This document shows, in pieces, positions 11,042 through 18,527 of a stretch of DNA of 64,000 nt. The first letter of the stretch is position 1. Each line of letters begins with the position of its first letter. The stretch is from an uncultured Litoreibacter sp. (GTDB lineage Bacteria; Pseudomonadota; Alphaproteobacteria; Rhodobacterales; Rhodobacteraceae): the NCBI GenBank assembly GCA_947492995.1, contig CANLOU010000003.1:682001-746000 (forward strand), in the 5' to 3' direction. Below the pieces are notes generated by a model. It had not been told where the DNA came from. It did not search any database and saw only the letters and a program-made list of their open reading frames with translations. Made by a program: the position numbers and the translations under genes.

Positions 11042-11629
11042 ATGTTCACTGGCATCATCACCGATATTGGCACCATCACCGAGCTGGAACAGCGCGGCGA
11101 CCTGCGCCTGCGCATGGCCTGTGCCTATGACACAGGCGGCATCGACATTGGCGCCTCTATCGCCTGCAATGGCTGCTGCCTGACGGTGGTGGAACTGGGC
11201 GCGGACTGGTTTGACGTGGAAATCTCCGCTGAAAGCGTGTCCAAAACCAACATTGGCGATTGGGCCCTGGGCAGTCGCATCAATCTGGAACGCGCCTTGA
11301 AAGTCGGTGACGAGCTGGGCGGCCATATCGTGTCAGGCCACGTGGACGGGGTGGCCACCATTGTGAAAATGGTCGACGAAGGCGACAGCACGCGCGTCAC
11401 GCTGGAGGCCCCGGACGCTCTCGCCCGCTTCATCGCGCCAAAGGGGTCTGTGGCGTTGAATGGTACATCGCTGACGGTGAACGAGGTTGATGGCGCAAAG
11501 TTTGGCATCAACTTCATCCCGCACACCAAATCAGTGACCAATTGGGGCGACGCCAGGGAAGGCGACCGCATCAATCTGGAGATTGACACGCTCGCCCGCT
11601 ACGTCGCCCGCCTGCAGGACTGGGCATGA
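11042..11629 (+). CDS. ribE: Riboflavin synthase, alpha subunit
   Basis: Riboflavin synthase makes riboflavin from two molecules of 6,7-dimethyl-8-ribityllumazine. The 195-residue protein shows the expected duplicated lumazine-binding barrel: MFTGIITDIGTI at the start, SIACNGCCLTV and ISAESVSKTN in the first half, GGHIVSGHVDGVA in the middle, and GTSLTVNEVDG with FIPHT in the second half. The frame extends upstream to 10985, but the family starts at MFTGII, and the ATG at 11042 has GGAG nearby. The stop overlaps the next start by four bases. No FMN riboswitch was seen in the 176-base leader. Confidence 0.95.
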   Translation: MFTGIITDIGTITELEQRGDLRLRMACAYDTGGIDIGASIACNGCCLTVVELGADWFDVEISAESVSKTNIGDWALGSRINLERALKVGDELGGHIVSGHVDGVATIVKMVDEGDSTRVTLEAPDALARFIAPKGSVALNGTSLTVNEVDGAKFGINFIPHTKSVTNWGDAREGDRINLEIDTLARYVARLQDWA

Positions 11630-12222
11630 GCGGGCCAGCCTTGAAAGGGATGGGCCACAATAACGGCCCCACATTGGAGCCCGGGTTTGCGTGGCGCAAA
11701 CACAGCTGGGCCAAAGCCCGCCGCGATTTGTTGCCGAGCCTGCCCATAGAAGTCCTGCGCCGCCGCGTCGCCCGCGCCAAGGAATTGGGGCTGCCCTACA
11801 AAACCTACGCCTCCGTCCGCGCGGCCTCGGGCCACGACGTCGTGGCGTTTTTGTATTCCAGCAACGCATTGCGCGTTTTCCGCGATGGTGCGCCAATGCC
11901 CGCAGACCGCGCCGAAAAACTTCTCTGCGTCAAAGGGGCGGGCCTCACGACGCTGGCGCAACCGCCCCTTGATCCGGCGCGGCTTATCGCGACGCTGATG
12001 TCGGAGCACGCCATCGCCCTGAAAGCCGCGTCCCGAGCGCCGCATTTCGCGGCCAGCTGGTCGGAGATCGGCTCGGCTGTCGCCGCCCCTCTGATCGCCG
12101 CCCGACTTCCGCGCGACGGGGTCGTGGTGGTGGGCGACACCGACGCGGAACGCGACTGGTGCGCGGCCGGGCGGCTCGCTGGGTTCATCTCAAGTGATGT
12201 ACAATTTGGGTTGAGGGGCTGA
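11626..12222 (+). CDS. Uncharacterised protein coupled to riboflavin synthase
   Basis: A 198-residue soluble protein with no recognised domain. It opens with a conserved-looking segment MGHNNGPTLEPGFAW, then a helical stretch rich in Arg/Ala (WAKARRDLLPSLPIEVLRRR) and a segment YKTYASVRAASGHDVVAFLY; the C-terminal half has PRDGVVVVGDTDAERDWC. Its start overlaps ribE by four bases, so it is translated with riboflavin synthase and lies inside the ribE-ribB-ribH-nusB run, which makes a link to flavin metabolism plausible but unproven. Its last codons overlap the first arm of the TTTGTACAAA repeat element (12195-12270). Confidence 0.7.
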   Translation: MSGPALKGMGHNNGPTLEPGFAWRKHSWAKARRDLLPSLPIEVLRRRVARAKELGLPYKTYASVRAASGHDVVAFLYSSNALRVFRDGAPMPADRAEKLLCVKGAGLTTLAQPPLDPARLIATLMSEHAIALKAASRAPHFAASWSEIGSAVAAPLIAARLPRDGVVVVGDTDAERDWCAAGRLAGFISSDVQFGLRG

Positions 12223-12270
12223 AAATTCGTCCCCAATTTGTACAAAACTCCGTACAACTCTCTGAAACCC
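12195..12270 (+). repeat. Dispersed paired-palindrome element, copy A (TTTGTACAAA type)
   Basis: Two TGTACAA boxes (12198 and 12239) in inverted arrangement, TGTACAATTTGGG ... CCCCAATTTGTACAAAA, with a third GTACAA at 12252. A 22-base stretch starting CCCCAATTTGTACAAAAC at 12231 is repeated exactly on the other strand at 17339-17360, and the spacing of the paired boxes is the same in both copies. It covers the 3' end of the previous gene and lies 54-129 bases before ribB. It may be a double operator or a small dispersed repeat. Confidence 0.75.
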
Positions 12271-12323
12271 TTTAAAATCGGTGAATGCCGCGCTATCTCG
12301 CACAGGACATATAAAGGCTGCCC

Positions 12324-13418
12324 ATGACCGACTATTCCGACGCGATTTCCCCGATTGAGGAGATTTTGGACGACGCCCGCAACGGCCGTATGTTCATTCT
12401 GGTGGACCATGAGGACCGCGAAAACGAGGGTGATCTGGTCATTCCAGCGCAGATGGCCACCCCGGAAGCCATTAATTTCATGGCAAAATATGGCCGTGGC
12501 CTGATTTGTTTGACCTTGACGGGCGAGCGCATTGATGCGTTGGGGCTGCCGCTGATGGCGTCGTATAATTCCTCCCGCCACGAGACCGCCTTCACCATCT
12601 CTATTGAAGCGCGCGAGGGCGTCACCACCGGCATCTCCGCCCATGACCGCGCCCGCACCGTCGCCGTCGCCATCGACCACTCCAAGACCGCTGCCGACAT
12701 CGCCACGCCGGGTCACATATTCCCGCTAAGGGCCCGTAATGGCGGGGTTTTAGTGCGTGCGGGCCATACCGAAGCCGCCGTCGATGTGTCGCGTTTGGCG
12801 GGGCTGAATCCGTCCGGTGTGATCTGTGAAATCATGAATGAAGACGGCTCCATGTCGCGCCTGCCTGATCTTGTGGGCTTTGCGCAGCTGCATGGTCTGA
12901 AGATCGGCACGATCAGCGATCTGATCGCGTACCGTAGGCGTCACGACAATCTGGTGAAAGAGTCGTCAAATCAAAAGGTTACGTCCCAGTTCGGGGGTGA
13001 TTGGGACATGCGGATTTTCACAGATGAAACGCATGGCTCTGAACATATCGCGCTAACCATGGGCGATCTGTCAGACCCCGCGCCGGTTTTGACGCGCATG
13101 CATGCGCTGAACCCCATTGAGGACGTGCTGGGCCTTGGCCCGTCTCCGGCTGACGAGTTGCGAAATGCAATGAAAACAATCGCTTCTGAAGGGCGCGGCG
13201 CAGTGGTCTTGCTGCGCGACACAACAATGAAGCTGGTGACAGATGGCGAGATATCGCCGCAGACCTTGCGCCAATACGGGCTGGGCGCGCAGATTTTGGC
13301 GGCTTTGGGCCTGCATAAGCTGGAGCTGTTAACCAACAGTCCGTCGCCCAAAGTTGTAGGTCTTGACGCCTACGGGCTGGAAATTACCGGCACCCGCAAT
13401 ATTCCCACGGAGGGCTAG
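12324..13418 (+). CDS. ribB: 3,4-dihydroxy-2-butanone-4-phosphate synthase with degenerate GTP cyclohydrolase II-like domain (RibBX type)
   Basis: The N-terminal half (to about residue 205) is a complete RibB: DHEDRENEGDLV (29-39), SSRHETAFTISIEAREGVTT and HIFPLRARNGGVLVRAGHTEA contain the acidic and histidine residues needed to make dihydroxybutanone phosphate from ribulose 5-phosphate. The C-terminal half aligns in position with GTP cyclohydrolase II, but the zinc-binding cysteines of the real enzyme are absent (the matching stretch reads TRMHALNPIEDVLGLGP). It is therefore a RibBX-type fusion rather than a working RibBA, and a separate RibA is expected elsewhere. It is 364 residues long. 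It lies downstream of the paired TTTGTACAAA element and three bases before ribH. Confidence 0.9.
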   Translation: MTDYSDAISPIEEILDDARNGRMFILVDHEDRENEGDLVIPAQMATPEAINFMAKYGRGLICLTLTGERIDALGLPLMASYNSSRHETAFTISIEAREGVTTGISAHDRARTVAVAIDHSKTAADIATPGHIFPLRARNGGVLVRAGHTEAAVDVSRLAGLNPSGVICEIMNEDGSMSRLPDLVGFAQLHGLKIGTISDLIAYRRRHDNLVKESSNQKVTSQFGGDWDMRIFTDETHGSEHIALTMGDLSDPAPVLTRMHALNPIEDVLGLGPSPADELRNAMKTIASEGRGAVVLLRDTTMKLVTDGEISPQTLRQYGLGAQILAALGLHKLELLTNSPSPKVVGLDAYGLEITGTRNIPTEG

Positions 13419-13421
13419 ATC

Positions 13422-13961
13422 ATGGCCGGATCAGAGACGCATCATGTGATGGACACCCCCAAATTCGATCAGCCCACCAAACTGCTGATCGTGGTGTCGC
13501 CCTACTACAAAGACATAGCAAACAACCTGTTAGAGGGGGCCAAAGCCGAAATCGAGGCCGCTGGTGCCACCTATGAGGTCGCAGAAATGCCCGGCGCGTT
13601 GGAGATCCCCTCGGCCATCCGAATTGCCGACCGGCAGAGCGATTTTGATGGCTACGTCGCTTTAGGCTGCATCATCCGGGGGGAGACCACGCATTACGAT
13701 ACGGTCTGCAATGACAGCTCGCGAGGGCTCATGCTGCTGGGGCTTCAGGGCTGCAACATTGGCAACGGGATCTTGACGGTGGAGAACCGACAGCAGGCTG
13801 AAGTGCGGGCCGCCCCGAAAGATCAGAATAAAGGGGGAGGTGCCGCGGCTGCGGCCTTGCATCTGATCGCGATGCAGCGCAGATACGGGCCGAAATCGCG
13901 TGGGCTGGGGTTCCGGCCGGGCGGCAATGATGAAGACGACGGAAGTTTCCAGATCGCATGA
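13422..13961 (+). CDS. ribH: 6,7-dimethyl-8-ribityllumazine synthase
   Basis: Lumazine synthase, the penultimate enzyme of riboflavin synthesis, condensing the RibD product (after dephosphorylation) with the RibB product. The 179-residue protein has the substrate-binding PGALEIPSAI (about 57-66) and the catalytic RGETTHYD with His91, followed by LGLQGCNIGNGILTVEN. It is slightly long at the N-terminus; the MAGSETHH start is kept because it lies three bases after ribB. The C-terminal tail is polar and rich in Asp/Gly. The stop overlaps nusB by four bases. Confidence 0.93.
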   Translation: MAGSETHHVMDTPKFDQPTKLLIVVSPYYKDIANNLLEGAKAEIEAAGATYEVAEMPGALEIPSAIRIADRQSDFDGYVALGCIIRGETTHYDTVCNDSSRGLMLLGLQGCNIGNGILTVENRQQAEVRAAPKDQNKGGGAAAAALHLIAMQRRYGPKSRGLGFRPGGNDEDDGSFQIA

Positions 13962-14425
13962 CCACCTCGAACAACCAGAAACGGGCGATGAAATCGGCCT
14001 CCCGCCTCTACGCGGTGCAGGCCCTGTTCCAGATGGAGCATTCCAGCCAGTCGATTGATGATGTCCGCGCCGAGTTTGAGGATCACCGCTTCGGGGCGGT
14101 CTATGAGGGCGAGGAGATGATCGAGGGGGATGTCGACACGTTCCGCGCCCTGTTGGAAGGCGCGGTGGCTGAGCAATCGCAGATCGATCAGCTGGCGGAC
14201 CGGGCCATCGTGGAGACCTGGAAGATCGACCGGATTGACCCGACCCTACGCGCCCTATTCCGGGCGGCGGGGGCGGAGTTGGTGGCCAAGGCCACCCCGC
14301 CCAAGGTTGTGATCGTCGAGTTCGTGGACGTGGCCAAGGCCTTCTTCCCCGATGGGCGCGAGCCTAAATTCGTGAACGCCGTGCTTGACCATATGGCGCG
14401 CGAGGCGCGGCCCGAGGCGTTCTAG
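13958..14425 (+). CDS. nusB: Transcription antitermination factor NusB
   Basis: NusB binds boxA RNA with NusE (ribosomal protein S10) during rRNA transcription. The 155-residue all-helical protein shows the family pattern: RLYAVQALFQME near the N-terminus, a central helix pair, and IDRIDPTLRALFRAAGAEL, then VVIVEFVDVAKAFFPDGREPKFVNAVLDHM at the C-terminal end. It overlaps ribH by four bases; ribH-nusB is a widespread pairing. A 73-base dispersed repeat begins nine bases after the stop. Confidence 0.93.
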   Translation: MTTSNNQKRAMKSASRLYAVQALFQMEHSSQSIDDVRAEFEDHRFGAVYEGEEMIEGDVDTFRALLEGAVAEQSQIDQLADRAIVETWKIDRIDPTLRALFRAAGAELVAKATPPKVVIVEFVDVAKAFFPDGREPKFVNAVLDHMAREARPEAF

Positions 14426-14434
14426 GCGCGGTCC

Positions 14435-14507
14435 GACGCATGCGTCGGAACCTGCAACCCTTTGATTTCGTTGGAAACAACGTCAAAAATTAACCACTTA
14501 TTTACCC
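14435..14507 (+). repeat. Dispersed 73-base element, copy A (GACGCATGCGTC ... TTAA-N7-TTTACCC)
   Basis: It starts with a palindrome (18 bases here, TCCGACGCATGCGTCGGA at 14432) and ends with ATTAACCACTTATTTACCC. The second copy at 40969-41041 has the same two ends at exactly the same distance (73 bases), while the middle differs. Both copies lie in a gap where two genes converge, both in plus orientation after the plus-strand gene. Confidence 0.75.
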
Positions 14508-14511
14508 GGTC

Positions 14512-15018
14512 CTAGCTGGTGCAATCCGCGGCTTTGATAGCGGCGCGGCTGGTCGTGTCGAACACGCCGCGCGTGGTGTTTCCGCCGCTTTCCAGCATCA
14601 CTGATGCTCCGGCAATCTCGCTGCCGGCGACGCGGATTTGGCCCAAAGCCCCGTTTGTCACAGTGTCGTCCACATCAATTGTGAAGGCCACGCTTTGGCT
14701 GGGGGCAAGGCCCGTGAGGTCAAGCCGGATGACGGTGTCGCCATCCTTGACGGGGGCGACCGTGCCCAACACCTCGCCGCCGGACACGGTCTCGAACGGT
14801 TGGAACACCTCGACCCCTGCGCCGTTGCCGGTTGTGTCAAAGATCAGCCCTGCAGCGCTGTCCGCGAGGTTCAGCGTCAATGTTGCGGGGCCGAGGTCGC
14901 AGCCTGCGGTGTTGGTGAAGGTGAAGCGGTCCTTGGGGGCGCTTTCGGTGAAGGTGACGGCAATGTCGGCGGCTGCGGGCGTTGCGGCGAGAAGGGCCAG
15001 CGTGAGTACGGTTTTCAT
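14512..15018 (-). CDS. Secreted protein of unknown function
   Basis: A 168-residue protein with a signal peptide (MKTVLTLALLAATPAAA). The mature part is beta-rich and low in charge, with repeated short segments of the type AGLIFDTTGNG, GDTVIRLDLTGL and SVAFTIDVDDTVTNG, suggesting a beta-sandwich. Two cysteines (in AGCDLG near the start and DCTS at the very end) could form a disulfide. The frame is open to 15054, but the ATG at 15018 starts the signal peptide and has GGAGG upstream; that ribosome site lies inside a partial copy of a dispersed repeat (15031-15055). It lies after, and on the same strand as, the ClpP-like gene. Confidence 0.7.
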   Translation of the reverse strand: MKTVLTLALLAATPAAADIAVTFTESAPKDRFTFTNTAGCDLGPATLTLNLADSAAGLIFDTTGNGAGVEVFQPFETVSGGEVLGTVAPVKDGDTVIRLDLTGLAPSQSVAFTIDVDDTVTNGALGQIRVAGSEIAGASVMLESGGNTTRGVFDTTSRAAIKAADCTS

Positions 15019-15030
15019 CTGTGGTATGCC

Positions 15031-15055
15031 TCCGGCGGGGATATTTTCGAACATG
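15031..15055 (-). repeat. Partial copy of the ATATTTTTGGAAC-type dispersed element
   Basis: On the plus strand GGGGATATTTTCGAACATGG resembles the 3' part of the elements at 21928, 29864 and 37305. On the minus strand its other side provides CCGCCGGAGG, the ribosome-binding site of the gene starting at 15018. Confidence 0.45.
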
Positions 15056-15086
15056 GGAAGGGGGGTGCCTCTCAGTTTTTGGCGGG

Positions 15087-15947
15087 CTACTCGGTCGGTT
15101 CTGTCGCCATATTGTAGTCTTTCAGCTGTTCGGGCAGCAGCACGTATATTTCGTCGGGCGGTGTCACCAACGCGTGGCGCATAATGAGTGGATCAACGCC
15201 CATATCGTTGAGATAGGCCATGACCTCGCCCTGTCCACGTTGAATGTCTTCGACGGCCAGAAAGGCGGGCAGGGCGGAGTTGGTTCCGAAATAGTGTTGG
15301 TGCACGCCGACTTGGGCCTCGTCATGGATGGTGCGGTCGGTGCCGGAGGCGAGGATGTAGGGGCAGGCGGACAGGCAGATGTCGCCCGCGCCCAGCACTG
15401 TGTTGAAGTCTTTGTCGCGCAGCTGGCGGCCAATCGTCAGAGCGTCGCGCACCGATCCGCCGGGGGAATTGAGGCGGATATGGGTGAGGCTTTGCGGGTT
15501 GGCGCTGAGGTATTCGGTGAAGCGGTCGGCGTCACCCGGCGCGATGGTGCCCGTCAGCGTGAGCGTTTCGCCTTTGATTTCAAAGGAAATGCGCGACGGC
15601 ATATCGCCGGTGGAGCGGTAGGGGCGCGCGGGGTTGCCCTCATCTGCGGGGCGGAGCGGCGTGTCGCCGGGCGAGTAGCGCCGCGTCTGGTCGCCCGGGA
15701 TGACGGGCGTGTCAAAGCGCGGCTGGCTTGAGGGCCATGCGATATGGGGGATCGCGGCAAAGAGGTCGCGGCCCATCAGGAACAGGGCGATGCCCAGTTG
15801 CACCGCGAGGACCAGCTTGATGACGCCTTTGGCGGTGATCTGGCTTTTGGGCTGGTCCGCCTTGAGCGCCTGCTTTGCGGCCCTTTTGGCCGCACGTTTT
15901 TCGGCGCGGGTGGGGGGCAGCGTTGGGATGTCGGGTGCGGAGGTCAT
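15087..15947 (-). CDS. Membrane-anchored ClpP-like (COG3904-type) protein
   Basis: A 286-residue protein with a charged Lys/Ala-rich cytoplasmic start, one membrane helix (about residues 43-65) and a soluble C-terminal domain. That domain resembles the ClpP/crotonase fold of periplasmic COG3904 proteins: LNSPGGSVRDALTIGRQL (SPGG at 161-164, as in the oxyanion loop), CLSACPYILASG with Ser193 as candidate nucleophile, and VGVHQHYF with histidines near 216-218. Whether it is an active protease is not known; a full Ser-His-Asp triad cannot be proved by eye. Its start overlaps the stop of the upstream membrane/coiled-coil gene by four bases, so both are made together. Confidence 0.7.
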   Translation of the reverse strand: MTSAPDIPTLPPTRAEKRAAKRAAKQALKADQPKSQITAKGVIKLVLAVQLGIALFLMGRDLFAAIPHIAWPSSQPRFDTPVIPGDQTRRYSPGDTPLRPADEGNPARPYRSTGDMPSRISFEIKGETLTLTGTIAPGDADRFTEYLSANPQSLTHIRLNSPGGSVRDALTIGRQLRDKDFNTVLGAGDICLSACPYILASGTDRTIHDEAQVGVHQHYFGTNSALPAFLAVEDIQRGQGEVMAYLNDMGVDPLIMRHALVTPPDEIYVLLPEQLKDYNMATEPTE

Positions 15948-17263
15948 GCCTGTTTGTCAGGCTTCACTTCGGAGGGTACCGGCTTGATTTCAGGCGTTAT
16001 TTCTGGTTTTCGCGGCGGCGCGGGCGTCCATGTTTCGGAGCCTCTGAGAGAGTGTTCGACATCCTGGACTGCGTTCAATGCGGCGCGCAGTTCGGCCAGT
16101 GTCAACGTGTCCTCGACGCCGACGCGGGACTTGCCGGAGCGGATGGCGGCCTGCGTGATGGCGAGGATGAAAACCAGCACCGCAGGGAGCAGGTCGATGG
16201 CGATGGCACCCGCCCAGCTTGGCACGAAGTTCTCGGCGTAGCGGATCACGGCGTCGGCGGTTGAGATCGGAGTGTAGATGGTTTCCGACGGTGGCTCCAT
16301 CGCCATGACGCCGTCGGCGGCAATGCGCAACGTGTCGGCGCGCTGGCCAAGTAATTGTAATACCGAAGAAATTGTTGATTGCTGGCCTGCGCGATTTTCG
16401 GCTGTGCGACCATCGAGTTCGGGCAGGATGACGGAGGCCGAGAGGTCCTGGGCGGCGCGGGACACCAAGGGGGCGACCGAGAGCTGCCTGAGCTGGGTGA
16501 TGACGCCTGCGAGGCGGACGGCTTCTTCGGAAAACTGGACCGAGCGGGCCTCGATCGGGCCGGGCTCAACGGTGAGGGAGCGCATCCTGCTGAGGATGGC
16601 GTTTCCTTCGGTAAATGCTGCATTTACAAGGGGTTGCTGGGAGGCGATTTGGCGTTCCAAGCCCGCCAGCTCGTCGGATTTTTGCCGCAGCACGCGAAAC
16701 ACCGCGCCGCGACCGGCGAGGCCGGACAAATCGCCGGTGGCTTCTTGTTCTGACAGGTCCTCGAATGACTGGCGCACGCGGGCGACATCGCGGCCAAGCC
16801 CTTGAGCGGAAATGGTTATTTCGTTGGAGCGTTCCAATGCGGTCTGGTAGTCCTGCACCGTGCGGGCGAGGTGCTGCTCAACGGCCGCGGCCCCTGCCAA
16901 AGCGGCGGCATTCAGCCACGAGGACATGGCGATAATTGCCAATGATCCCAACAACATAGACACGAAAAGCCCGATGCGTGCGCCCATGGTGCGGACGGCG
17001 GGAAGCAGGCGCATGAGGTAGGACCAGAACACAAAGATGCCGACGGAGACGGCGATGGAGTAGCTGACGGCGGCAAAGAAGCTTAACGCGCCGTTGTCAT
17101 CGAGCAGGGAGGAGACGCCCAGATAGGTGTAAATGCCTGATGCGACTGCCAAAACTCCGAGTGCGGCGGCTGTAAAACTGTCGAGCCAAGAGACGTGGCC
17201 CTCCAATTCCTTGGCGTAGCGCAGGCCTTGCGCCTCGGCGCGGGTCAGTTTTTCGTCGTCCAT
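15944..17263 (-). CDS. Four-helix membrane protein with long coiled-coil region, unknown function
   Basis: A 439-residue protein. Hydrophobic segments lie at about residues 28-48, 57-79, 92-118 (MGARIGLFVSMLLGSLAIIAM) and 355-375 (IAIDLLPAVLVFILAI). Between the third and fourth is a long charged helical stretch (about 125-300) rich in Gln, Arg, Leu and Ser, probably coiled coil and probably outside the cytoplasm. The C-terminal tail is rich in Pro/Glu/Lys. The plan of paired membrane helices, a large helical loop and a final helix is similar to poorly known DUF-type envelope proteins; no family was recognised. It is the first gene of the unit with the ClpP-like gene, and copy B of the TTTGTACAAA element lies 62-133 bases upstream. 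Confidence 0.65.
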   Translation of the reverse strand: MDDEKLTRAEAQGLRYAKELEGHVSWLDSFTAAALGVLAVASGIYTYLGVSSLLDDNGALSFFAAVSYSIAVSVGIFVFWSYLMRLLPAVRTMGARIGLFVSMLLGSLAIIAMSSWLNAAALAGAAAVEQHLARTVQDYQTALERSNEITISAQGLGRDVARVRQSFEDLSEQEATGDLSGLAGRGAVFRVLRQKSDELAGLERQIASQQPLVNAAFTEGNAILSRMRSLTVEPGPIEARSVQFSEEAVRLAGVITQLRQLSVAPLVSRAAQDLSASVILPELDGRTAENRAGQQSTISSVLQLLGQRADTLRIAADGVMAMEPPSETIYTPISTADAVIRYAENFVPSWAGAIAIDLLPAVLVFILAITQAAIRSGKSRVGVEDTLTLAELRAALNAVQDVEHSLRGSETWTPAPPRKPEITPEIKPVPSEVKPDKQA

Positions 17264-17324
17264 GGGTCGCTCCCCTTAACCAGAGGTTAATATGGGGCTC
17301 GGGGAGGCGTTTGACCAGTGACGG

Positions 17325-17396
17325 TTCTGCGAGCTGTGCGGAGTTTTGTACAAATTGGGGATGATCTGGCGGGGCCAAAACCCAGTTTGTACAAAA
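17325..17396 (-). repeat. Dispersed paired-palindrome element, copy B (TTTGTACAAA type)
   Basis: Two boxes, TTTTGTACAAATTGGGG (17344-17360) and CCCAGTTTGTACAAAA (17381-17396), form a near-perfect inverted repeat. Read on the minus strand this copy has the same order, spacing and 22-base exact core as copy A at 12195-12270. It fills the gap between the PhyH gene and the membrane/coiled-coil gene, upstream of the latter. Confidence 0.75.
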
Positions 17397-17399
17397 TTT

Positions 17400-18527
17400 T
17401 CAGGGCCGTTTGCGGGCCGACATGGCGTCGAGTGCCGCGCCGAACTCAGCGGGCTCCATCGCTTGCGCGAGTGCGCGGGCCATGAACTCGGCCTGGCTTT
17501 CGGGGATGAGGCCGCCGACGGGGGGATCCGCGTCTAGATTGGTCGGGAAGGCGTAGCCCTCGGCGGCGGCGGCGATGATGCGGGCGGGGTTTTTGTGACC
17601 TTTGAGCACGGGATAGAGAGCGCGGCACATGGCGGTGCGGTCGACGGCCTCGATACTGCGGCCAAAGGGCGAGCCGATTTGCAGCAGGTTGGCGAGGCGG
17701 TAGCGGTCCTTGGTGGTGTTGGTGCCCGCGCCGTGCATGACGGCGGGGTTGAAGAAGACGGCGTCGCCTTTTTGGAGGGGGAGCTGGGTGCGGTTTTCGT
17801 CGAAGTAGCGTTGGAAGTTGTCGCGCTGGAAGGCGACATAGCCTTCGAGCATCTGGTGGGAATAGGGCAGGTAGAGCGTGGGACCCGTTTCCAGCGGCAT
17901 GTCGCAATGCGCGATGGCCCCTTGCAAGGTCAAGAGCGGCGACAGCGCGTGGACCTGCGCGGGGTAGGTGGCGACGCGGGCCGGCGGCATGAAGCCCAAA
18001 TGGTAGTCGCGATGCGCGGTCTGCGCGGCCCCGCCGGGATTGACGCGGTTGACCTGCGCGGTCAGCTGGTAGCCCTCCCCCAGCCAGGCTCGGCAGGGCA
18101 GGTCGATGGCGGGGGTGTCCATATAGGCCGCGAAATTGGCGGGGTTGGCCAGGCAGTGCTTTTGGGCCGCGTTCCAGACGCGGTCGTTGGCGCCGGGCTT
18201 GGCGAAGTGGTCGCCGCCGCCGGTGCCTTTCTCGGCGTCGATGATCGCCTCGAAGATTTGGGTGGCTTGATCGAGGGCGTGCAGGTCGGAGACCGCGCCC
18301 TTGATGGCCACAATGCCGGGGCCGGTGTCAAAAACGCGGTTCAGCTCGGTCATCAGCTCCAGCGGGTCGGCGGAGCGCAACGTGTCGCCTGTGTAGAGGA
18401 CCGTGTTTTGTTCAATCGCGCTGGCCAGCGGGTAGCTGGCCTTGTCGGTGTCGCGTTCCACCAGCGCTTTGAGCGCGTCGAGCGTGCCGGATGTGTCTGA
18501 CAGCCAGACGTTTGGATGTGTGCGCAT
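17400..18527 (-). CDS. Phytanoyl-CoA dioxygenase (PhyH) family protein
   Basis: A 375-residue Fe(II)/2-oxoglutarate oxygenase of the PhyH family, which hydroxylates small organic substrates. The iron site can be seen: His172-Arg-Asp174 in TAHRDYHLGFM and a distal His265 in NPAVMHGAGTN; Arg275 or Arg277 in KDRYRLANLL would hold 2-oxoglutarate. The double-stranded helix segment FNPAVMHGAG fits the fold. The substrate is unknown. A LacI-type regulator starts 51 bases away on the other strand, the usual place for a local regulator of a catabolic gene, so sugar- or inositol-related substrates are possible but not shown. Confidence 0.82.
   Translation of the reverse strand: MRTHPNVWLSDTSGTLDALKALVERDTDKASYPLASAIEQNTVLYTGDTLRSADPLELMTELNRVFDTGPGIVAIKGAVSDLHALDQATQIFEAIIDAEKGTGGGDHFAKPGANDRVWNAAQKHCLANPANFAAYMDTPAIDLPCRAWLGEGYQLTAQVNRVNPGGAAQTAHRDYHLGFMPPARVATYPAQVHALSPLLTLQGAIAHCDMPLETGPTLYLPYSHQMLEGYVAFQRDNFQRYFDENRTQLPLQKGDAVFFNPAVMHGAGTNTTKDRYRLANLLQIGSPFGRSIEAVDRTAMCRALYPVLKGHKNPARIIAAAAEGYAFPTNLDADPPVGGLIPESQAEFMARALAQAMEPAEFGAALDAMSARKRP

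Follow-up and report, generated by a model that had tools for sequence, protein, structure and literature searches.

The paired palindromic boxes that stand before ribB in the window (a 64,000-nucleotide stretch of an uncultured Litoreibacter genome) belong to an element with about 36 copies in that genome, which looks like a chromosome-level site or a tamed mobile repeat and no switch for ribB. The best explanation we can offer, tentatively and as close to an even call, is that a domesticated repeat has been kept as a set of dyad sites for a putative trans-acting factor with a chromosome-level role; we infer both the factor and the function. Specifically, the palindromic dyads, their near-constant spacing of four helical turns, the retention of both dyads and a coordinated change of the boxes argue for a dimeric protein that would bind duplex DNA at both dyads, and the strand polarity of the copies, together with their behavior as inserted DNA, argues for a mobile origin of the single-strand type. 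As far as sequence searches reach, the element family appears nearly confined to one genus.

Architecture and distribution of the element

The element is about 55 bp long and reads TTTTGTACAAA-n-TGGGTTTTGGCC...CCCCAATTTGTACAAAAC, that is, two TGTACA dyads 41 bp apart, with GGG and CCC facing inward and a directional spacer. In the window's own genome (G000, 3.84 Mb; other G handles denote further genomes of the same genus, 21 in total), the consensus of the 30 copies with exactly this distance is TTTTGTACAAAnTGGGTTTTGGCC-n-AAA-n-CCCCAATTTGTACAAAAC. Because the spacer consensus is partly conserved the element has a direction, and because 41 bp is about four helical turns both dyads would lie on the same face of the helix. 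Two copies lie in the window. Element A (12195..12252, plus strand) stands before ribB and has its core at 12198-12244, its dyads at 12198 and 12239 and a right-hand tail, AAACTCCG, at 12245-12252. Element B (17339..17396, minus strand) lies in the reverse orientation, with its core at 17347-17393, dyads at 17347 and 17388 and a tail that runs to 17339. A sequence-only model, R1, built from 88 copies of which 29 come from G000 and match by construction, finds element A at G000:C3:694197-694248 (window 12197-12248, E 2.8e-12) and element B at G000:C3:699343-699396 (window 17343-17396, E 1.3e-14). The initial annotation had reported that the 22-mer at 12231-12252 is the exact reverse complement of 17339-17360, which it is. 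It had also reported equal box spacing in the two places, which holds, at a distance of 40 bases, which does not: the TGTACAA starts (12198, 12239, 17347 and 17388) give 41. Its statement that the bases between the boxes are not conserved is right only in part, since the consensus GGGTTT.GGCC...AAA...CCCC is present in the spacer. A third, half box (GTACAA, 12252..12257, plus strand) lies in the right-hand tail of element A and is seen in some of the G000 copies, where a weaker GTACA box follows the two dyads on the right and the column profile has a tail AAACTCCGTACAAAAC; this half-box tail is absent from the consensus of the copies of other genomes.

Both elements in the window lie at or near genes, as called by a simple codon-score script of our own making and no published gene finder. 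The first 25 bp of element A overlap the 3′ end of an ORF at 11626-12222, which lies between the gene for riboflavin synthase and ribB and has no Pfam match at E 0.001. On its other side, element A adjoins a ribB/ribA-type fusion of DHBP synthase and GTP cyclohydrolase II (12324..13418, plus strand; PF00926 3.5e-83, PF00925 1.7e-31), and the Pfam matches around it mark lumazine-binding, DHBP synthase/GTP cyclohydrolase II and DMRL synthase genes. Control of the fusion gene by element A is not part of our best explanation. Element B lies 6 bp past the stop codon of a PhyH-like gene of the phytanoyl-CoA dioxygenase family (17400..18527, minus strand; PF05721 6.6e-28), whose 3′ end it adjoins.

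The pattern TTTGTACAAA, with at most one mismatch, occurs three times in the window against 0.58 expected (as many in 1 of 100 shuffles). The 3.84-Mb genome has 55 occurrences, compared with 4 of a control pattern read backwards. A genome-wide search for paired boxes, proposed in the initial annotation, returned 35 instances of TGTACA-N20-50-TGTACA against 7 in the control, and in 30 of the 35 listed pairs the dyad starts are exactly 41 apart. When R1 matches on both strands are merged by hand, G000 has 36 places, among them one partial, one weak and one rearranged copy, so that further copies beyond the window do exist and elements A and B are two among about 36. A stretch with a single box (L109) was excluded from these counts, and one without the spacer consensus (L042) from the alignment.

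Among the 21 genomes of the genus, three of which are less than 90% complete, R1 matches (E up to 0.001) occur in eight, one of them, G017, with a single weak match; seven carry clear sets and 13 have no match, hence the genus can do without the element. A pattern scan of named genomes, which may omit the window's own, gave 59 stretches: 56 in Litoreibacter, two convincing ones in other Rhodobacteraceae (L050, L075) and one false (L042). Across 394 sampled genomes (393 genera of the family), the only genome with a match was the window's own, under stricter filters that yielded just 14 matches there, so weak or rare copies elsewhere are possible. No title or abstract describing the element was found among the matches listed in a literature search, and five longer box strings had no occurrence in the literature searched; TTTGTACAAA occurred once among the matches listed, as a Gateway primer.

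A sister form shares the architecture, with TGTCCC/GGGACA replacing TGTACA, and in relatives takes some of the places where the TGTACA form stands elsewhere. Searched in the 21 genomes with at most three mismatches, TTTTGGGACATTTTGGGACAAA matches in four (G016 15, G006 9, G019 5 and G015 1), where some matches are paired at one place and the single match in G015 is equalled by one in the reversed control. Hybrids of the two forms occur in G006 (L223, L227, L229). One of these is the ribB site, with a left dyad TGTACA and a right dyad TGTCGC; a sister species thus has an intermediate form of the site before ribB. In G016, GGGACA-type boxes also lie directly beside TGTACA elements (L049, about 229-356; L061, about 1357-1440).

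Gene context and the operator reading

The initial annotation proposed a double operator for one cooperative transcription regulator that would tie riboflavin synthesis to other genes. Perfect dyads at a four-turn spacing would suit such an operator, as would the position before ribB in G000, the TGTACA/TGTCGC form before ribB in G006, and copies just upstream of start codons (for example L079, L085 and L102). The 36 copies of G000 taken together point elsewhere: 25 lie between co-directional genes, six between convergent genes, one between divergent genes and four inside ORFs. Divergent gaps make up 26% of the intergenic room (1.08 Mb examined) and hold 1 of the 32 intergenic copies (P=0.0009 for one or fewer). 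The neighboring genes, which from their sequences we take to be recJ, rpsO, leuC/leuD, thioredoxin, glyS, parC, gmk, aat and others, look unrelated to one another, and no set of sites in promoters of functionally linked genes was found among the 36 copies. Nor does orientation follow the transcribed strand (15 of 25 in G000, no bias). The operator reading fails because divergent gaps hold 1 of 36 copies and the neighbors are unrelated. The annotation itself had named copies inside genes or between converging genes as what would speak against a regulatory role, and copies do fall between convergent genes, inside ORFs and close behind stop codons. An ordinary regulon is therefore ruled out by gene context as a general explanation, with room for effects on single neighbors, and we regard a cooperative double operator as improbable. 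One copy (L101) overlaps the start of a called gene that follows a gmk-like gene.

Apparent insertion, drift and orientation of the copies

At two loci the element can be compared with relatives that do not have it. The 5′ end of recJ was read in 18 genomes, leaving out G009 and G010 (no motif) and G019 (no recJ match). Five have the element there, in the TGTACA form in G000, G020, G018 and G016 and in the TGTCCC form in G006; in the remaining 13 the genes abut, overlap or leave a short gap. Relative to these nearly abutting genes the element is extra DNA, in which a target-site duplication could not be delimited. The variable loop of an mccB-like gene was likewise read in 18 genomes, leaving out G015 (not read) and G011 and G019 (no close match): the TGTACA form lies in frame in G000, G020, G018 and G005, the TGTCCC form in G016 and a degenerate one in G017, and 12 genomes have a shorter loop. 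In L094 (3679-5304), where a copy lies in frame in a mccB-like carboxyltransferase, the loop exceeds that of the shortest relatives by about 10 residues. Since relatives without the element have short or no intervening DNA at recJ and mccB, the element looks like inserted DNA there. The other suggestion of the initial annotation, a small mobile repeat, is thus largely borne out as to origin by some 36 dispersed copies and by relatives that do not have the inserted DNA at two places; shared places and a species-by-species shift of the boxes hint at more than mere parasitism.

At least 14 of the 36 G000 copies share their place and orientation with a copy of another species. The comparison covered 95 copies from eight sources with flanks of at most 2 kb and scored the same orientation only, and the count is a lower bound because the partners came mainly from exact-pattern copies; one copy (L083) linked to its orthology group only via another member was excluded from it. 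Along a stretch that is collinear save for one inversion, G000 and G018 share 208 reciprocal best hits, of which every third pair was scored and gave 82% identity in protein and 50% at 4-fold sites. Four of the five G000 copies in this stretch have an orthologous place, and at all four both dyads are kept in G018, with the right half inverted in one. One half inverted in place is seen in TGTACA and TGTCCC forms alike (L092 4475-4530, L211, L232, L233, and G018 near C1 1367 kb).

The exact-pattern searches fix the letters of TGTACA and GGG/CCC, and conservation was scored at unfixed positions only. On this basis, orthologous copies (51 pairs at 21 places) have an identity of 0.79 at unfixed box positions, 0.64 in the spacer and 0.65 and 0.70 in the flanks. 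Paralogues within a genome reach 0.78 in the boxes and 0.61 in the spacer, while for non-orthologous copies taken from different genomes the values are 0.72 and 0.54. That copies of the same genome are about as alike as orthologues points to a shared drift of all copies in each genome, and the consensus differs by genome: AAGTTGGG occurs in six of the seven G020 copies, and position 32 is T in 17 of 29 copies in G000, A in 24 of 28 in G018 and G in 8 of 13 in G016. The spacer values count against our best explanation, in that spacer identity between orthologues is not above that of the flanks and hardly above that between paralogues.

Measured against uniform placement within contigs, copies are more evenly spaced than chance in G000, G018 and G016. 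In G000 the effect is strong for short gaps, where 10.7 of 31 would be expected below 40 kb and 3 are observed (P=0.0002), but not strong for the CV (P=0.05). Among the matches listed, the CV is 0.57 in G018 against 0.95 expected (P=0.0001; short gaps P=0.004) and 0.57 in G016 against 0.88 expected (P=0.014; short gaps P=0.04). G000 contig 1 has parS at 831 kb, within a copy-free stretch that runs from 625 to 988 kb. A gap in the matches listed for G006 (C1 2519-3090 kb) also contains parS. Because a G018 copy lies 28 kb from its parS, a copy-free gap around parS is no general rule.

Orientation agrees with the sign of the local 4-fold GC skew for 29 of the 33 script-recognised copies of G000, or 31 of 36 when three copies added by eye are included (L081 and L092 agree, L089 does not), where the sign is scored even near zero (as in L020, L051, L087 and L090). 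The agreement extends to G018 (25/28), G016 (11/13), G020 (7/7), G019 (5/5) and the copies outside the genus (2/2), with 2/4 in G005. For the TGTCCC form it is 23/25 with L207, L224 and L235 dropped and L211, L232 and L233 re-oriented by their spacer, and 20/25 without re-orienting. Element B agrees with its local skew and element A opposes it, as one of the four G000 exceptions. It is tempting to see in this strong orientation, and in the even spacing, a polar signal of current replication or segregation, such as a fork-arrest or FtsK-type orienting site. Against the present arms as placed by parS, on the two contigs that allow the test (one parS-bearing contig each in G000 and G018), there is however no agreement (5/14 and 4/12), and we consider such a signal most improbable. 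We suppose instead that polarity was fixed at insertion and that later rearrangement would have moved copy and skew together. The orientation relative to present replication, the exceptions to the skew in element A and in G005, and the 13 of 21 genomes without a match all count against our best explanation as well.

The skew itself is a mosaic in 680 kb of G000 C1 and 400 kb of G018, mostly alike on plus- and minus-strand genes. Over G000 C1 1-680000 and G018 C1 1180001-1580000, its sign flips every few tens of kb, with local values up to 0.4. The element-free G002, in twenty 20-kb samples, has two plain arms with a change of skew sign at parS; in G017 and G014 (one weak match or none), each read in eight samples of 4 kb, clear arms were not seen either, which leaves a link between mosaic skew and element unproven. 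At recJ the skew is −0.26 to −0.40 in the five genomes with the element and −0.21 to +0.12 in 12 without it, and the mccB loci show no such contrast between genomes with and without it. We considered whether the elements cause inversions or anchor the skew and do not claim it, because the visible edge of the G000/G018 inversion lies about 10–17 kb from the nearest copy, the association of orientation with skew has faded at about 25 kb (12 copies), and the skew of G000 C1 correlates with itself over about 20 kb only (longer in G018). The terminus was not placed by dif, since the search gave one site with three mismatches in G000 and none in four other genomes. The word TGATCA is strongly depleted in G000 (C1 1-680000 and C2 430001-830000: 38 against 515 expected from sub-words) and less so in 400 kb of G018 (203 against 317), perhaps an effect of restriction-modification or methylation.

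Possible domestication or selfish spread, and known systems

The explanation that we favor runs as follows. Copies would first have inserted at new places in one fixed orientation relative to the replicating strand, an outcome expected of single-strand transposition on the lagging strand. They would then have been kept in place by a putative trans-acting, dyad-binding protein, probably as two dimers, that may use them as chromosome-level sites, for example in bridging or marking the nucleoid. Had the specificity of this protein drifted, copies at unchanged places would have shifted together, as in AAAATGGG, AAGTTGGG and the change from TGTACA to TGTCCC. A further version of this idea, which we think unlikely, is a new chromosome-maintenance system with about one double-dyad site per 100 kb, in which a domesticated strand-polar repeat serves a putative protein, a TGTACA-to-TGTCCC switch occurs at the same places and the G006 hybrids are intermediates. 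If the element is bound by a dedicated protein, this would be a chromosome-organising system, largely restricted to a single genus, caught while its recognition sequence changes, and the evolution of a genome-wide protein-DNA code would be readable from orthologous sites.

The element could also be a selfish REPIN- or MITE-like repeat that forms a hairpin in single-stranded DNA and that a trans-acting transposase, since lost or unrecognised, copies onto the template of the lagging strand; conservation would then reflect vertical descent and homogenisation within genomes rather than use by the cell. This is a serious contender, to which we lend somewhat less belief than doubt. The inverted doublet TTTTGTACAAAnTGGG...CCCAnTTTGTACAAAA around a spacer speaks for it, as do places without the element in relatives (recJ, mccB), copies with one half inverted in place, the likeness of same-genome copies, and an orientation that is strand-polar and fits the local skew rather than the parS-based arms. 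Insertion into the lagging strand, which would give such polarity, is documented for IS200/IS605 elements in the part of the source drawn on here (PMC6006769). The single strands also fold better than shuffles under DNA parameters; the difference is clear in element B (z −3.6 and −3.5) and weak in element A (z −1.9 and −2.1), with only 0 to 7 of 200 shuffles as good for the four strands. Compensating pairs between the arms are modestly over-represented (25 cells versus 18.2, a level that 7 of 500 shuffles attain), an excess that can arise from relatedness of the copies alone. This same excess would be in keeping with a hairpin rather than a duplex site and to that extent goes against our best explanation. 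On the other side, all 88 aligned copies are distinct, the arms mismatch at one pair in 36 of the 88, and dyads are kept at four of four orthologous places despite 50% 4-fold identity. The spacing of the Litoreibacter element is over-even, unlike that of REPINs, whose distances above 200 bp are described as random in the portion of the source considered here (PMC3116915). In addition, Y1_Tnp (PF01797) matches in none of the 21 genus genomes, in a search that was positive in 5 of 14 control genomes. As we take PF01797 to cover RAYTs, no Y1/RAYT transposase was found in the 21 genomes by this family, and we rejected a RAYT-driven REPIN on that ground. If the element is selfish nonetheless, it would be a palindromic repeat that is strand-polar, is spaced with unusual evenness and lacks a recognisable Y1 transposase, and the persistence of palindromic repeats without a RAYT becomes testable.

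A foldable inverted repeat (by DNA parameters) with a modest excess of compensating pairs, 25 of whose 36 copies lie between co-directional genes, might act in RNA as a terminator, a processing site or a small RNA. The five weak Rfam matches in 12000-17600 reach no gathering score and overlap neither element, RNAalifold gives 10 pairs with no double change, and orientation to transcription is 15/25. With no match at gathering score and arm pairing only modestly above shuffles, we rejected an RNA-level element, to which we give very little credence.

How does the element compare with known systems? It is best filed among short interspersed palindromic elements, as a directional, double-dyad family at genus level that has a sister form. 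Rickettsia palindromic elements insert in frame into genes, and one copy of our element likewise lies in frame, in the variable loop of the mccB-like carboxyltransferase, whereas 32 of the 36 copies are intergenic. The inverted units, spacer and hairpin ability of REPINs are all present in the Litoreibacter element; a cognate RAYT and a random long-range distribution were not found (the latter in G000 and, among the matches listed, in G018 and G016). Like the REPINs and REP doublets described in the consulted part of PMC3116915, it is a short doublet of inverted units around a spacer, lies mostly outside genes, can form a hairpin, and is dispersed and different between relatives, but unlike them it has only about 36 copies, a near-fixed 41-bp distance between dyads, no Y1_Tnp match and box shifts at shared places. 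With the GTAG- and CGTC-tagged palindromic repeats, as far as the available part of PMC3733652 describes them, it shares the palindromic form, an occurrence of some copies in genes and, for the CGTC class, the absence of a dedicated transposase; it differs in being a pair of TGTACA dyads with no GTAG or CGTC end tag in the consensus and with strong strand polarity. The orientation relative to present replication direction that marks Ter- or KOPS-type sites was not found on the parS contigs of G000 and G018. SlmA-, Noc- or MatP-type sites are dispersed short palindromic binding sites on the chromosome. Although the Litoreibacter element differs from these in having two dyads per site, a direction, insertion as a unit and no known protein, it resembles them in that each chromosome carries tens of short palindromic sites, dispersed and with no tie to promoters.
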